This document shows positions 11,967 through 25,709 of a stretch of 33,670 nt of DNA, one piece after another; position 1 is the stretch's first letter; the number at the start of each line of letters is the position of its first letter. Origin of the DNA: a virus. Under the pieces are notes generated by a model. That model was not told the DNA's origin, did not search any database, and saw only the letters and a program-made list of their open reading frames with translations. Position numbers and translations under genes: made by a program. The DNA lies in the IMG/VR virus record IMGVR_UViG_3300031759_000095, positions 1 through 33,670 of that record. One strand, given 5' to 3'.

Positions 11967-12530
11967 TTATTTACCTTCCAAGAAACGTGAAACGAAATTG
12001 CCCTTACGAGCAGCAGGAGCAGAGTCCATGCCAGAACGTGAAGGAGCACCCTTGCCCATAAGGTATGCCTCAAGGAAAGTCACTCGTGACTCTTTCGAAA
12101 CATCCAAGCCAAGCTTTTTACAGCCATACTTTGCCATCTTGCTCAGGTCCATTTCAGAGTGATCGAACGCTCCAATATGGGCTGAAAGCTTTTCGTATAG
12201 CTTATTCTTTTTCGCGATTGAGAACTGAACGCTTCTAGCAATAGCTGCAGCGTCCATGCCTTCGCCTCTTTCGCCTTCCTTTTCTTCTTCCTTCTGACCG
12301 CCTACACCGTACTGAGGGACTTCCTCGTCTTCGGTTACTTCGGGCTTATCCTCTAATGGAAGATCACCTTCTTCGTCATCATCGGAAACAGCTTCCGCAC
12401 CAGCAGAACCAAATTCTTGGCCTGTGAGCTGCTGAATCTTTGCCAGCTTTGGCATGACTTCTTCGAGGAATTTATGCACTTCCTCCAAAGTCATTGGGCT
12501 CCCGCCCATTTCTTTGTTTTCTTCAGCCAT
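11967..12530 (-). CDS. Putative internal scaffold protein (in-frame alternative start)
   Basis: Inside the protease gene an ATG at 12528-12530 (Met372) is preceded by AAGGAG (12540-12545 on the minus strand) with a 9-nt spacer, among the best Shine-Dalgarno sites in this gene. It would yield a 187-aa protein, [20 protein letters not shown] onwards, that is acidic ([20 protein letters not shown]), then helical ([20 protein letters not shown]). This is the composition of a capsid scaffold. It repeats the logic of lambda C/Nu3, where the scaffold is made from an internal start of the protease gene. The start signal is seen in the sequence; use of it is inferred. Confidence 0.55.
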
Positions 12531-13643
12531 GTTAATGAACTCCTTATTGTCTACAGTGAAAGTAAAATGGTCTAAAACCGCCACATCGGGGCCCATGCGT
12601 CCGTTATCGACAAGGGCTAGATGATTGCCCCGAATGTCCCGTTGAATGTAATCATACTGCATTCCGTCATAAACGCCGGGGGAGTATTCATACCTGCAGC
12701 GGTATCCGCATGACAATTCTTTTTTCCCGCTAGCAATGAGGTTGGCCATTGCTTCCGAGAATACCTTGATATTGCCCTTTAGGGTCATTCCGTCGAAATG
12801 AACATCTTGTCCAATAACGCCCTGAACGCCCTTTTGCTCGGAAGGAGTCAATCCAGCATCTTCACTGCCAAGCATAGTATGGTTATCAATCCAAGGAATA
12901 AGTTTAAACGAATCAACGCAATCCGACGAGCCCAGTTCCTCAGCGGGTCGATAAACCATATAGATTTTGTTTGGGTCGCACTCGTCGGAAATCGACCGAC
13001 CAGAATAAGGGAATACCCCTACCATTGAGAGAGGGTTATCTTTTACTTCGAACCACCCGTTCGTATCGTATTCTCTTTTATCCATTCCCGAAGCGTTCGC
13101 TTCAGCAGCTTCCGCGATTTTTTCTTCATCCCCGTCAATCTTCGGAAACAACGGTTCAGGTGCATCCGCAATGGATGCCCAGACATATTCGCTGTGCTCG
13201 TCATTCAGTTCTGGCTCGAATTCGCCATCATTACATCCGAAGAGTCGAACCTTGCCTTCTTCATAAATCAGGTTAATGCCTGTCTCTGGGACGTGCATGG
13301 TCTCTTCTCTCGACTCGCGAATAGCGCTTTCAATCGGAGATTCTCCTTCTTCAACGTGACCACCGGGAAAGCCCCAGGTATCATCCTTGGTTCTTTTCAT
13401 CCAGAGAATCCTTTCGCCGTCCGTGTAGACGATAAAAGCCACAATTTCAGAATCTGGCTCTTCCTTGAGGTCTCGTTTGTGTGATTGGATCTCTTCTTCA
13501 GTCAATTTCTCATCAACACCGTGAGATTTACGAGCATTGCTATAGGCAATTGCGACTGCCTGATTTTGCGGATATCCGCTCTTAACCAGCTCAGCAATGT
13601 TCGAGCTGATCGTCTCTTTTGAATAACCTTCTTTGAGGGGCAT
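11967..13643 (-). CDS. Nudix - prohead protease (DUF2213-like) - scaffold polyprotein
   Basis: This 558-aa protein has four visible parts. Residues 1-39 form an [20 protein letters not shown]-type helix pair. Residues 62-165 are a Nudix hydrolase with the box [20 protein letters not shown] (Gly95 to Glu114). Residues 195-360 look like the DUF2213 capsid protease, with possible catalytic residues His255 (IDNHT), Ser311 (ELSCGY) and His341 (GNHLAL). Residues 372-558 are acidic and helical and look like a scaffold. The position directly before cement and capsid is where head maturation proteases lie. Protease-scaffold fusions are familiar; the N-terminal Nudix domain is a less common extra whose substrate is unknown. 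The start is coupled to the preceding gene by TAATG. Catalytic residues are inferred from motif spacing. Confidence 0.8.
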
Positions 13644-21866: not shown

Positions 21867-24125
21867 CTATCCAAAGAAACTCTTACGAGCAACCATTATT
21901 TCAGAAAACGCTCTTGACAGGGAGTCGATTTGGTCATCATGAGCTCCATTAGGGAACACTCGCATTTCATTGATGAGGGCTTGATTCCAATCTCCTCGAA
22001 GCATAAGCACGTTGCCAACGTTCACTTGAGCTGCAAATGGTTCTGCGCGGGTTATTTTGTCTCCCGTCTCAGGTGAGCTTTTGACATTGTATCCCGACAA
22101 TGCACGAGTTAGGTATAACACTTGGGTTTTACCTGCTTGACCGGGGTCTTGAGGGATGCTGATTCTTACGCCTCGCCCATCCTGTGAGGCTATGTTAATC
22201 ATTGCAGCGTCTCGCTGGTCTGGTCCTACGCGCATTCTGGCCATATCCGCAATAATGTACCGCCCATCTTCGAGCCGTCCGAGCTTGCCTCCTGCTGTGT
22301 AATCCCCTTCCGGTGAACTGGCCAAGTCCCAGCCTCGACACCACTTGATCGAGCCAGCAGGAATTGCGTCCACCACTTTGATTTGGTCAGGACGAAATAA
22401 ATCACCCTCAAGCGGAGCGGGACGTTGCTGGAAGAGTGCAGCCCAAGTCCTTGGGTTTTGCTCGAACTGATCCCAGTGTTTACGGTCGAACCATTCTGGC
22501 CAGAGATATACGCCAATTTCACGTCCAAGCGGGTCATTCTCCTGTTCGCATTTAGCTGCAAGACAAATAACTTCCCAATAGTTGCCATCTTTGCAAAGAA
22601 TCTTTCCACTTTCACCGTTCCAGTCTTCTGGAAGGATTCGCCCTGATAAATCATCTTCGTGCCACCGTGTATTGTGGCTTACTAGACCGTTGGCAATGAA
22701 GTTCTCAGTCCGTTCTACCTGAATATCATAAACGTCCTCATAGCCTTCCGAATATATTGCCTCTACGGTGTCAAGAATGAAGTCTGAGGTATTCAGCGGC
22801 CCGCTCAAGGATTTCGGATGTCTTTCCGTATCCGACGGCCAGATTGCAATCGTTGCACAGTAATCCCCGAACCTTCGCAGTGTCGTGGCAATGATCGACG
22901 CATAATTTGCCGCCCCAATGCGCTCTAACATTTTTCCCCGGGGGTTCACCACATACGGCACACTTTCCGCCTTGCGCTTCCAGAATCCGGTTGTATTCTT
23001 CGATGGTGATTCCGTATCGGTGTTTGAGGTGCGCTGATCTGTGGGATTCTGCGTTGACTGATGGCGCCCTGTAGCCGCTCTGCCACCGCCACTTATTGTA
23101 ATGAGAGTTGCAATACCCTCGAACGCGAACGTCTTTTTCGCATCCGTCAGCTTTGCACTTAACCCCAGTCCACTTTCCTTTTTGACCCGGAAGATTTCTT
23201 GGCCCGGGACTATATTTTTCAGACGAATCCATTTTGGTTCTCCACCCACATTAACAAGAAACGGATGTCTCTCGTTTGCGCGGACGATTATCCCTGACTT
23301 CATCTTAATTACATAGATTAAATCAGGACCATTGTTTCTCCAATTTAGAACCTTTGATTTTGTGAGCTTACCGTTTTCAAAGGTAGCAATTTTGTCTCCA
23401 ATTTTGATGTTCTTAAGGTCTGTTTCAGTTCCATCAGCCATCAAAACAGATGTATCTCCCGTCATACATTGAATTATGCAAATCCATCCACCCGGAATAA
23501 GTCGAGTTTTTAAGTCATCTTCATACGCTGCAAAGGTACGATCCCTTATAGTTTGTGAGTTTGCTTGATCTCTGCCTTTTACTGGATCATCAATAATGAT
23601 CCCGTTGGCGCGGTTGCCCGTGATGCCACCAAGAATTCCGCAAGCCATATATTCTGAACCGTTAGTCAAAGCAAACTCTTGGGCTGCTGATGATTCAGTC
23701 GTCAATCCAGTTGCCCATATTCCTTTGTATCGTGGTTGCTTAATAATGGATCGGGTACGCCGCCCCAGCTTACGGGCTAGATCGTCTCCATAGCTGGCCA
23801 GAATAATCCGGCTTCCGGGGATGGCCCCCATATAGTCGGAAGGAAACACCACTGAGGCATACGTTGATTTAGCACTGCCCGGAGGCATGAAAACCATCAT
23901 TCGCCCGTGTTTGGTTCTTGAGACTTCATAAAGTTTGGAAAGAAGAAGACGATGGTGCAAAGCCATCGTAGTTTCGACTGGATAAAAGAACTCAGTGTCA
24001 GGATCTTCCGATCCGGGTTTACCCGGAACATCAATGGCATTTGCATAGTGCAGGATGTCCTCTCTTGCCATCCTACGAATTAAAACTTCCCTAGCTGCGT
24101 CCGATTGCGATTGCGAGTAGCTCAT
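21867..24125 (-). CDS. terL: Terminase large subunit interrupted by an intein
   Basis: This is a 752-aa precursor. Residues 1-219 and 486-752 are a normal large terminase (about 486 aa without the intein). The ATPase has Walker A PPGSAKST (81-88), Walker B IIIDDPV (176-182), and the coupling motif TRWHEDD, which is split just before its Thr. The nuclease domain has [18 protein letters not shown] and [14 protein letters not shown], with acidic residues placed for two-metal cleavage. Residues 220-485 are a Cys1-Asn266 intein, annotated separately, so active terminase depends on protein splicing. It pumps DNA into the prohead and cuts it. It overlaps the small terminase gene by 35 nt and lies 7 nt from the portal. 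Splicing is inferred from the block motifs. Confidence 0.92.
22671..23468 (-). other. Intein coding segment in the terminase gene
   Basis: The segment encodes 266 residues from Cys220 to Asn485 of the precursor. Block A is [20 protein letters not shown]-type at the start (Cys1). Block B includes NERHPFL (His68 of the intein). The C-terminal blocks F and G are [18 protein letters not shown] and LVSHN, with the penultimate His, terminal Asn and a +1 Thr in the extein. It sits before TRWHEDD, a functionally critical motif where inteins persist because deletion must be exact. The middle 130 or so residues (from about 316 to 447) have no intein-like or domain-like character; that stretch is the shadow of the HNH gene in another frame. 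Without it the intein would be about 135 residues, the size of a mini-intein. Confidence 0.88.
22771..23232 (-). CDS. Endonuclease VII-like HNH protein nested out of frame in the intein
   Basis: This 153-aa gene lies wholly inside the intein DNA but in a different frame from the terminase. It has an own ATG (23230-23232), a GGTGGAG Shine-Dalgarno (23240-23246) with a 7-nt spacer, and an own TGA (from 22771). Residues 26-44 are a CxxxxC...CxxH finger (Cys26, Cys31, Cys41, His44). The nuclease carries Cys91/Cys94, D113-H114-C-H116, Cys126/Cys129 and Asn130, with [18 protein letters not shown], the layout of phage recombination endonuclease VII / HNH enzymes. A homing role, cutting intein-less terminase genes, is inferred from location. 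The intein frame remains open through it, so both frames appear to be selected. Confidence 0.85.
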   Translation of the reverse strand: MDSSEKYSPGPRNLPGQKGKWTGVKCKADGCEKDVRVRGYCNSHYNKWRWQSGYRAPSVNAESHRSAHLKHRYGITIEEYNRILEAQGGKCAVCGEPPGKNVRAHWGGKLCVDHCHDTAKVRGLLCNDCNLAVGYGKTSEILERAAEYLRLHS

Positions 24126-24620: not shown

Positions 24621-25709
24621 TTATGGGTTTGAATTTTCTTGTTCAATGCTTTTGAATTCGAACGTTGCAGTCAATCGAGCATCGGATGTTGATCCAGCCA
24701 ATATTCCTGTTTTTGCCGTATCTTTCAAACGACCCGGTTTTCTTACCATTGCCCATGCTTTGTCATGTTGTAATCCATGAACAAATGCAGGTGAGCTTGT
24801 AACCAATGACACTCTAAATCCTTGTTTTTTGTATTTTTTGGCTATCTCATTCAAAAATTGTTTGCCGAGTCCAATACCTTGATAATCAGGTTTGACCACT
24901 ATTCGATGAATACGCTTCATGTTTTTGACGTGAGGATGCGGAAAATGCAAAACTGAACACCACGCCACAGGTCGATCATTGATTTCGCAAATGTATTTGT
25001 GCGCTGCCATATTGTGATCGTGGCTCAAATAATGAAACTCCATGAATTGCTTCCATTCACGTTGCTCAGCTTTTCTGATGTTGCAGACAATTTCAGGACG
25101 CCGAAGATCCCTCCAGACAAATTCTGCTTTGTCGCAGTTGTAAACCCAATCAGGTTCCAACCATTTTTCAATGTCATAATGACAAGAAACAGCGATGAAT
25201 TGTTTGTCTTGTTTCCTGATGAATTTTTGGATTGCTGACGATCCTACGCAAGCCACTTGGCGATCCACAACAGAAGTAAACTCATCATAAATGCAGGGTT
25301 TTTCGCTTGTTAGGATCAATTTGGCGAGTTCTGCTCGCATCTTTTGACCGTTTGATAAGACTTGAAATGGTTTTAGCCAATCAGGAGGCGAAGCGAACCC
25401 GACTTTGCACAGCGTTTCCGTAATGTCTTTAGCTGAATGATCGCCAAAATCATCAATAATGGATTGCCCCGTCCATTCATAGCCTTCAAAAAAAAGGAAA
25501 TCTTTAAACAGGCGTCGAGCAATTGTTGTTTTACCGCTTCCTGATGCTCCGACAATTAGACCTACATTCCATTTCTTGTCTTCAATCGGAATTTTAACGT
25601 CGAATTCTTTTCTGACTACATCGGCATCAAAATCGAACGCTGATTTGACTTTGTTTGCTTTGAATGAATTTGATGTGGGACTTTCAATTACAAACTTTGA
25701 ACTCGGCAT
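24621..25709 (-). CDS. ABC-type ATPase fused to a GNAT acetyltransferase domain
   Basis: This 362-aa protein has two domains. Residues 40-200 form an ABC-family ATPase with Walker A GASGSGKT (54-61), signature-like LSNGQ (118-122), Walker B PCIYDE (138-143, Glu143 following the Asp) and a switch His177 (VSCHYD). It has no membrane segments, so it is not a transporter. Residues 205-350 form a GNAT fold with RIHRIVVKPDYQGIGLGKQF, where QGIGLG (277-282) is the acyl-CoA pyrophosphate-binding loop. The start overlaps the ParB-like gene by 22 nt, so the two are co-translated. The substrate is unknown. GNAT-fold Mom of phage Mu modifies DNA, so a DNA or protein modification role is a hypothesis. Confidence 0.75.
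   Translation of the reverse strand: MPSSKFVIESPTSNSFKANKVKSAFDFDADVVRKEFDVKIPIEDKKWNVGLIVGASGSGKTTIARRLFKDFLFFEGYEWTGQSIIDDFGDHSAKDITETLCKVGFASPPDWLKPFQVLSNGQKMRAELAKLILTSEKPCIYDEFTSVVDRQVACVGSSAIQKFIRKQDKQFIAVSCHYDIEKWLEPDWVYNCDKAEFVWRDLRRPEIVCNIRKAEQREWKQFMEFHYLSHDHNMAAHKYICEINDRPVAWCSVLHFPHPHVKNMKRIHRIVVKPDYQGIGLGKQFLNEIAKKYKKQGFRVSLVTSSPAFVHGLQHDKAWAMVRKPGRLKDTAKTGILAGSTSDARLTATFEFKSIEQENSNP

Follow-up and report, generated by a model that had tools for sequence, protein, structure and literature searches.

Intein and nested HNH gene in the terminase

The stretch of DNA analysed, henceforth referred to as the window, comprises 33,670 nucleotides of a phage (IMG/VR virus record IMGVR_UViG_3300031759_000095). 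Its gene for the large terminase subunit (TerL) lies on the minus strand and carries a predicted intein, within whose DNA an HNH nuclease gene is found in another reading frame. The features are listed here in the order of transcription of TerL, each with its basis in parentheses.

21867..24125, minus strand: TerL precursor, 752 aa (open reading frame; Pfam Terminase_6C and Terminase_6N)
23469..24125, minus strand: N-extein of TerL, 219 aa (adjoins the C-extein directly in empty-site relatives)
22671..23468, minus strand: intein, 266 aa, Cys1 to Asn266, followed by Thr at +1 (PF14890, 59.5 bits; AlphaFold model resembling mini-inteins)
23175..23468, minus strand: N-terminal splicing part of the intein, residues 1-98 (pLDDT)
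23240..23246, minus strand: Shine-Dalgarno-like GGTGGAG, within intein codons 75-77 (sequence; pairing excess across loci)
23229..23232, minus strand: ATGG, the nuclease start, formed by the third base of intein codon 79 together with the TGG of Trp80 (ATG or GTG in 107/107 loci)
22771..23232, minus strand: HNH nuclease gene, endonuclease VII family, 153 aa plus stop, in the -1 frame of the intein (open reading frame; Pfam)
22785..23174, minus strand: dual-coded stretch, intein residues 99-228, predicted to be disordered in the intein frame (pLDDT; dN/dS)
22671..22784, minus strand: C-terminal splicing part of the intein, residues 229-266 (mean pLDDT 95-97 from residue 231)
21867..22670, minus strand: C-extein of TerL, 267 aa plus stop, starting with TRWHEDD (open reading frame; empty-site relatives)

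The intein corresponds to TerL residues 220-485, beginning with CMTGDT and ending with SHN immediately before TRWHEDD. The precursor matches the Pfam families Intein_splicing (PF14890, 54.9 bits against a cut-off of 35.8) and Terminase_6C, and PF14890 was matched at E <=0.001 by 49/49 members of the intein family, consistent with a Hint fold. Position 1, which is Cys, Ser or Thr in class 1 inteins, is an invariant Cys in the 49 rows of alignment A4; R67-H68-P69 and D248 are also invariant in the family and H265 is nearly so, and these residues, with N266 and the +1 Thr, agree with class 1. Among the motifs of blocks B, F and G, NxxH stands in place of TxxH. In the AlphaFold model, 127/266 residues, located at both ends, have a pLDDT of at least 90, and 121 residues between 99 and 226 have a pLDDT below 50. 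This leaves residues of about 1-98 and 227-266 as the stretches that do not fall below 50, with ten-residue blocks of the N-terminal part averaging 94-98 up to residue 90 and 76 for residues 91-100. By fold, the model matches the mini-inteins of DnaB and RecA, with a TM (by target) reaching 0.88. By its sequence motifs and predicted fold, the insert is a class 1 intein, and splicing is predicted.

The nuclease reading frame lies wholly inside the intein DNA, offset by 2 mod 3 from the TerL frame, and begins with an ATG at 23232-23230 that is preceded by GGTGGAG 7 nt upstream. Its product matches PF02945 (Endonuclease_7) with 73.9 bits against a cut-off of 23.6, and the same family was matched by 40/40 nested HNH members. 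C26, C31 and C41 occur in all 107 sequences of the locus set described below, and C91, C94, D113, H114, C126, C129 and N130 in 0.99 of them; all of these residues, and H116, are invariant in alignment A5. The conserved Cys, His and Asn residues presumably have zinc and catalytic roles. The AlphaFold model of the HNH protein is fairly confident (mean pLDDT 86). Its top fold matches, 3fc3, 2qnf and 1en7 (Hpy99I and T4 endonuclease VII), are weak at E 0.007-0.02, with no match at E <=0.001 in the fold search, and neither of these two enzymes is known to be nested in an intein.

The TerL frame remains open across the whole HNH gene, where 3.8 stops would be expected if the HNH protein is taken as given and recoded with the terminase's own codon usage (P of finding none, 0.004). 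The in-frame nuclease domain of a canonical bifunctional homing intein is not found in the window. The preliminary description of this locus is borne out in these respects: a real intein at TRWHEDD, a complete out-of-frame endonuclease-VII-like HNH gene with Shine-Dalgarno sequence, ATG and stop, and an intein frame that is open throughout it. The approximately 135 residues that it counted without the overlap, the size of a mini-intein, agree with the number of confidently modelled residues.

Distribution, probable mobility and erosion of the nested pair

The same HNH was found by tblastn of annotated phages inside the TerL genes of Gordonia phages Angelicage, Affeca, Rofo, Vivi2 and others, and of Mycobacterium phages Phlyer, Chandler, Athena, AlanGrant and phi1_186018. 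The annotation under the HNH match was terminase or intein only in the 36 best-matching phage rows. Among viral contigs, the best 80 of 320 relatives of the HNH query were examined, two of which are the window's own contigs. When these were combined with five isolates and the window, the HNH frame relative to the C-terminal part of the intein was identical in 86/86 loci, and the intein frame was open from block A to block G in 83/86, the exceptions being two contigs that are truncated and L019, which carries indels. In L019 (the same contig as L108), the HNH is shifted by an indel into the frame of the N-terminal part of the intein, but the intein is then broken. A second scan with the N-terminal part of the intein as query (best 80 of 468 viral relatives) gave 77 new records, partly from contigs already seen. 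The HNH was in the same frame and the intein open in 73/77, four of the 73 retaining an HNH remnant only; the other four were two truncated contigs, the indel contig again and a 145-aa intein without an HNH match. In 84,980 prokaryotic species genomes, 9/10 matches were nested identically, on contigs of Bradyrhizobium, Nonomuraea, Mycolicibacterium, Gallionellaceae, Geobacteraceae, Chloroflexi, Anaerolineae, Eremiobacterota and one further bacterium; the tenth had no intein match adjoining it.

The 158 complete records contain 120 distinct inteins and were reduced to 107 loci below 90% nucleotide identity, consisting of 91 viral contigs from the two scans, five isolates, nine bacterial contigs, locus L175 and the window. 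Left out were 11/169 records (four truncated, two from the indel contig and five without a full nuclease). The two viral scans overlap, 20/67 second-scan inteins being identical to first-scan inteins, and the GC content of the 107 loci ranges from 0.35 to 0.69. By these comparisons, the nested arrangement is general rather than specific to the window, and occurs in phages of Gordonia and Mycobacterium as well as in metagenomic viruses and on bacterial contigs. A homologue with the same HNH in frame with the whole intein, which the preliminary description had named as contrary evidence, did not appear among the matches listed in the HNH, intein and genome scans; the search covered the best 80 of 320 and the best 80 of 468 viral relatives, so that rarer layouts could be missed.

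Eighty terminase records were compared at the insertion site, which was empty in 66, not judgeable in 8 and occupied by inserts in 6. The six inserts are those of the window's two contigs, the nested L175, L228 and L230, whose inteins share the window's site, and L235, whose insert is elsewhere in TerL (described below). Both L228 and L230 are without this HNH. L228 has an internal stop and looks similar to L230, which gives a weak in-frame LAGLIDADG match (17 bits, cut-off 22.5). In the intein-less L172-L174, and in L232 as far as its partial match extends, the C-extein shares about 98% identity with that of the window, and some empty-site terminases have C-exteins that are 98.5% identical. 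L173 and the window are 92-93% identical over stretches of 2-3 kb, mostly 98-100% upstream of TerL. Around the site, identity is 67-88% over the 500 nt leading up to it, 95-100% over the 200 nt that follow, 80-92% between +300 and +600 and 90-100% elsewhere from -2 to +2 kb; it also drops to 57-88% between +2.0 and +2.9 kb. The dip at the site fits co-conversion but could also stem from ordinary recombination.

Related copies of the pair are also found in distant terminases. Of 46 pairs of loci with HNH at least 72% and intein N-terminal parts at least 70% identical, 13 are in terminases whose C-exteins are 25-29% identical, the HNH sequences of these 13 pairs being 74-85% identical. Angelicage and Rofo share 98% of the C-extein and only 48% of the HNH. 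Over all pairs, identities correlate at 0.39 between the intein N-terminal part and HNH, 0.39 between the intein N-terminal part and TerL, and 0.46 between HNH and TerL, such that intein and nuclease track each other no better than each tracks the C-extein.

Loss of the nuclease was observed in several inteins. The 164-aa intein of L117, L118 and L122 and the 159-aa intein of L133 retain, by tblastn, only a stub of the HNH, with the ATG still at the Trp codon. The 145-aa intein of L119 likewise retains this ATG, with a stub judged by eye. In L255 (2795-2941), the nested HNH is stopped at 49 codons and the intein frame is still open.

Because these HNH-poor inteins keep remnants of the nuclease, they look like later deletions rather than the ancestor, and the invasion of a mini-intein by a free-standing nuclease gene, as had been proposed for the window, is not supported by them. 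The alternative for the origin is overprinting, or a frameshift of a once in-frame nuclease domain. It is favoured by the remnants in the HNH-poor copies and by the fact that an ancestor without the HNH was not found in this family. Against it, the family to which the HNH belongs is one of free-standing phage genes, an in-frame version was not found among the loci examined, and the nested copies group against five non-nested ones, albeit with a support of 0.52 only. Such an origin is considered rather unlikely, although it deserves some weight.

A different alternative is that the nuclease is real and serves packaging or recombination, not homing. HNH and endonuclease VII proteins can act beside terminases; the nested HNH is an endonuclease VII relative located in a terminase gene, and most matches among 60 phage records sampled down the ranking are in genes annotated as endonuclease VII. 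A packaging or recombination function fits poorly with a site that is mostly empty, even next to nearly identical C-exteins, with the presence of the pair in distant terminases and with loss of the nuclease while the intein was retained, and is accordingly regarded as improbable. Empty sites, copies in distant terminases and nuclease erosion are what the homing-cycle model predicts (PMC3229294). By their distribution, intein and nuclease are probably mobile as a unit through homing.

Shared start codon and selection on the two frames

Trp occupies aligned intein position 80 (residue 79-81) in 107/107 loci. The base before its TGG is A or G, which gives an ATG in the HNH frame in 90 loci and a GTG in 17, and in none of the 107 does a stop in the HNH frame fall between this start and the HNH. 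Given residue 79 and the codon usage of each locus, A would be expected before Trp80 in 36.1 loci as opposed to the 90 observed (z 11.9); at extein Trp codons of the same loci, A was found in 339/1,689 vs 291 expected, a small excess (z 3.5). Shine-Dalgarno pairing upstream of the start is modestly but significantly stronger across loci than in recoded versions (-6.13 vs -5.39 kcal/mol, Wilcoxon p 2e-5), with a 4-nt core present in 80/107 and absent in 27/107. The HNH-less inteins at the same site, L228 and L230, likewise read ATG and GTG before Trp, and the nTG triplet is partly pre-set by the intein itself. Other possible starts exist upstream of Trp80 in some loci. A nuclease start at the Trp80 codon is supported by these signs of selection, and translation would begin there.

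Since the HNH is encoded in the -1 frame relative to the intein, ribosomal frameshifting by -1 might in principle yield the nuclease fused to the N-terminal part of the intein. However, an HNH-frame stop occurs within 5 codons upstream of the start in 55/107 loci and within 20 codons in 83/107, and the ATG or GTG is universal, which makes frameshifting very unlikely.

Conservation of the open intein frame was assessed in 68 non-redundant loci that were unfiltered for an open frame; the indel contig L019, the truncated L061 and L063 and the window's two contigs were left out. Over the HNH, the intein frame contained 0 stops vs 197.9 expected when the HNH proteins were recoded with each locus's own terminase codon usage, and the unused third frame, serving as a control, contained 681 vs 664.2 expected. 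The corresponding frame of free-standing endonuclease VII genes contained 3-4 stops in 4/4 cases. The set of 107 loci had been pre-filtered for an open intein frame, and its zero stops are therefore not evidence.

Across 83 pairs whose HNH sequences share 70% identity or more, median dN/dS was 0.12 for the HNH and 0.12 for the N-terminal part of the intein, compared to 1.26 for the intein frame across the HNH; these NG86 values are biased for overlapping frames and saturated (HNH dS about 1.4) and were used as a contrast only. Third positions of the HNH, which are second positions of the intein, are just as variable as the fourfold sites in the part of the intein outside the overlap. Fourfold third-base identity in HNH vs the intein N-terminal part was 0.60 vs 0.61 in 15 pairs and 0.45 vs 0.42 in 94 pairs, and this comparison of like pairs gave no sign that residues of the intein frame are under additional selection across the nuclease. 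A codon-shuffle null cannot show constraint by itself because it preserves the codon pool of each column. The absence of stops, the dN/dS of 1.26 and the free third positions indicate that the intein frame over the nuclease is kept open with no sign of constraint on its residues, and the disorder between the two ends of the intein model agrees with this. As judged from sequence evolution, the nuclease and the splicing domain are both under constraint, and the intein residues across the nuclease are only kept open. The earlier claim that the same DNA is under two kinds of selection is borne out for the nuclease and the splicing parts; over the nuclease body, the only selection found on the intein frame is to remain open.

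A chance or decayed reading frame, or two assembly frameshifts masking an in-frame fusion, an error that the preliminary description had considered and in favour of which the indels of L019/L108 may be counted, was rejected as having almost no remaining likelihood, because the same frame is conserved in isolates and 107 non-redundant loci with a conserved start, an HNH dN/dS of 0.12 and 0 stops vs 198 expected.

Proposed mechanism and related systems

The preferred reading, to which a probability of roughly 0.87 is assigned, is that of a mobile class 1 intein in the TerL ATPase region whose homing nuclease is encoded by a separate, overlapping -1 gene and selected alongside the splicing parts. 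Inteins normally carry an endonuclease domain between the two splicing parts; here the nuclease gene lies between them without being an intein domain. A ribosome would read TerL straight through the intein, the nuclease-coding stretch yielding a long unstructured loop, and the outer two parts would fold into the splicing domain, from which excision of the intein would follow. A separate ribosome would initiate at the Trp80 ATG or GTG and produce the endonuclease-VII-type HNH protein. The distribution of the pair suggests that this nuclease probably cuts intein-less terminase genes at the insertion site and that repair would then copy intein and nuclease as one unit. Selection would preserve the nuclease and the splicing parts, and across the nuclease the intein frame need only be stop-free. 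The endonuclease site of inteins is reported to be highly conserved in position and to face away from the exteins (PMC6801210). The place of the nested gene between the splicing parts suggests that it is located at this site; if so, a long disordered loop would be tolerated and only stops would be selected against.

A second nested case was identified at another TerL site. Locus L235 (1846-2865) contains a different intein just before the TerL IDDP motif, and the +1 frame of this intein encodes an HNH of the classical, zinc-finger-like kind. This layout is also present in L261, L262, Gordonia phage Clown (L264) and Synechococcus phage S-EIVl (L265); L263, the third other contig of the search that gave L261 and L262, has no such frame. 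Four phage records were obtained for this type, the two besides those of Clown (L264) and S-EIVl being a further Clown record and an HNH gene annotated as such; in the Clown and S-EIVl records the nested HNH is not annotated as a gene. The Intein_splicing cut-off was passed by 5/5 of these loci and the Pfam HNH cut-off by 4/5, L261 falling just short (20.9 vs 21.4 bits). The intein frame contained 0 stops in each of the five vs 7.9, 4.4, 8.8, 4.4 and 14.1 expected. Third-frame controls contained 12, 12, 14, 6 and 13 stops vs 11.6, 10.0, 11.7, 4.9 and 7.6 expected, S-EIVl departing from its control (13 vs 7.6). Because site, frame and HNH family all differ, the second type likely arose independently.

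A broader proposal is advanced tentatively, at somewhat less than even odds. Nested-gene inteins may be a distinct, recurrent mobile class with at least two origins, a different HNH family having entered each of the two alternative frames. Inteins may generally become mobile by acquiring a once free-standing nuclease gene, out of frame, at the position where the endonuclease usually sits. Subsequent loss of the nuclease would leave a mini-intein, and acceptance of stops would lead to a fractured, split intein whose halves flank a nuclease gene of independent standing.

No description of an HNH nested out of frame in an intein was found in the literature searched, although a preprint on non-canonical actinophage inteins (10.1101/2025.01.02.630785) may cover phage cases. 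The intein of Chandler gp6 (TerL6-f, cluster B3/B4 mycobacteriophages) spliced in a reporter (Kelley et al. 2016, PMC5050341). It belongs to the same intein family and has the same frame offset by match coordinates, with Phlyer (L001) checked in full. In the available text of PMC5050341, cleavage was assayed for two other TerL inteins only, not for TerL6-f, and a nested HNH is not mentioned for TerL6-f. The hidden HNH of ShiLan (Arsenault, Gosselin, Gogarten 2025, PMC11855218) resembles the present one in being out of frame with an open host frame, a disordered in-frame product and homing deduced indirectly. It differs in lying within a methylase insertion that has no splicing domain and in having a GTG start without a detectable RBS, whereas the window insert has a splicing domain and a complete intein encloses the HNH, whose start is inside that domain.

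In canonical LAGLIDADG homing inteins the nuclease is a domain of the intein, whereas in the present case it is a separate overlapping gene; the intein of L230, with its weak in-frame LAGLIDADG match, occupies the identical TerL site. In the fractured genes of Dassa et al. 2009, the intein is reportedly split and a free-standing homing gene separates its halves. They are like the present case in having a separate nuclease gene between the N- and C-intein and differ in that their halves are split, whereas the window intein is continuous, with a frame that stays open across the nuclease, and would splice in cis. Thanatos-1 (L167) and EniLVp02 (L169) look like such fractured genes: each has an apparent split intein, and a homing endonuclease gene that stands free separates the two parts of a recombination gene.

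The usual description of an intein is that of a self-splicing element to which a homing domain is fused, and how the nuclease became joined to the splicing domain is an old question. In the present case the predicted nuclease is still its own gene, sharing the DNA of the intein and starting at an invariant intein codon. The loci provide many natural examples of DNA whose one frame is under selection for its sequence and whose other frame is under selection only for the absence of stops, and intein surveys that read the host frame only may miscall homing inteins as nuclease-less. The proteins are directly testable because cultured Gordonia and Mycobacterium phages carry the first type and Clown and S-EIVl the second.

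Two further proteins of the window each combine two domains. An ABC-type ATPase and a GNAT acetyltransferase are joined in one protein (24621-25709, minus strand) upstream of the terminase genes, and NUDIX and DUF2213 are joined in one 558-aa protein (11967-13643, minus strand).
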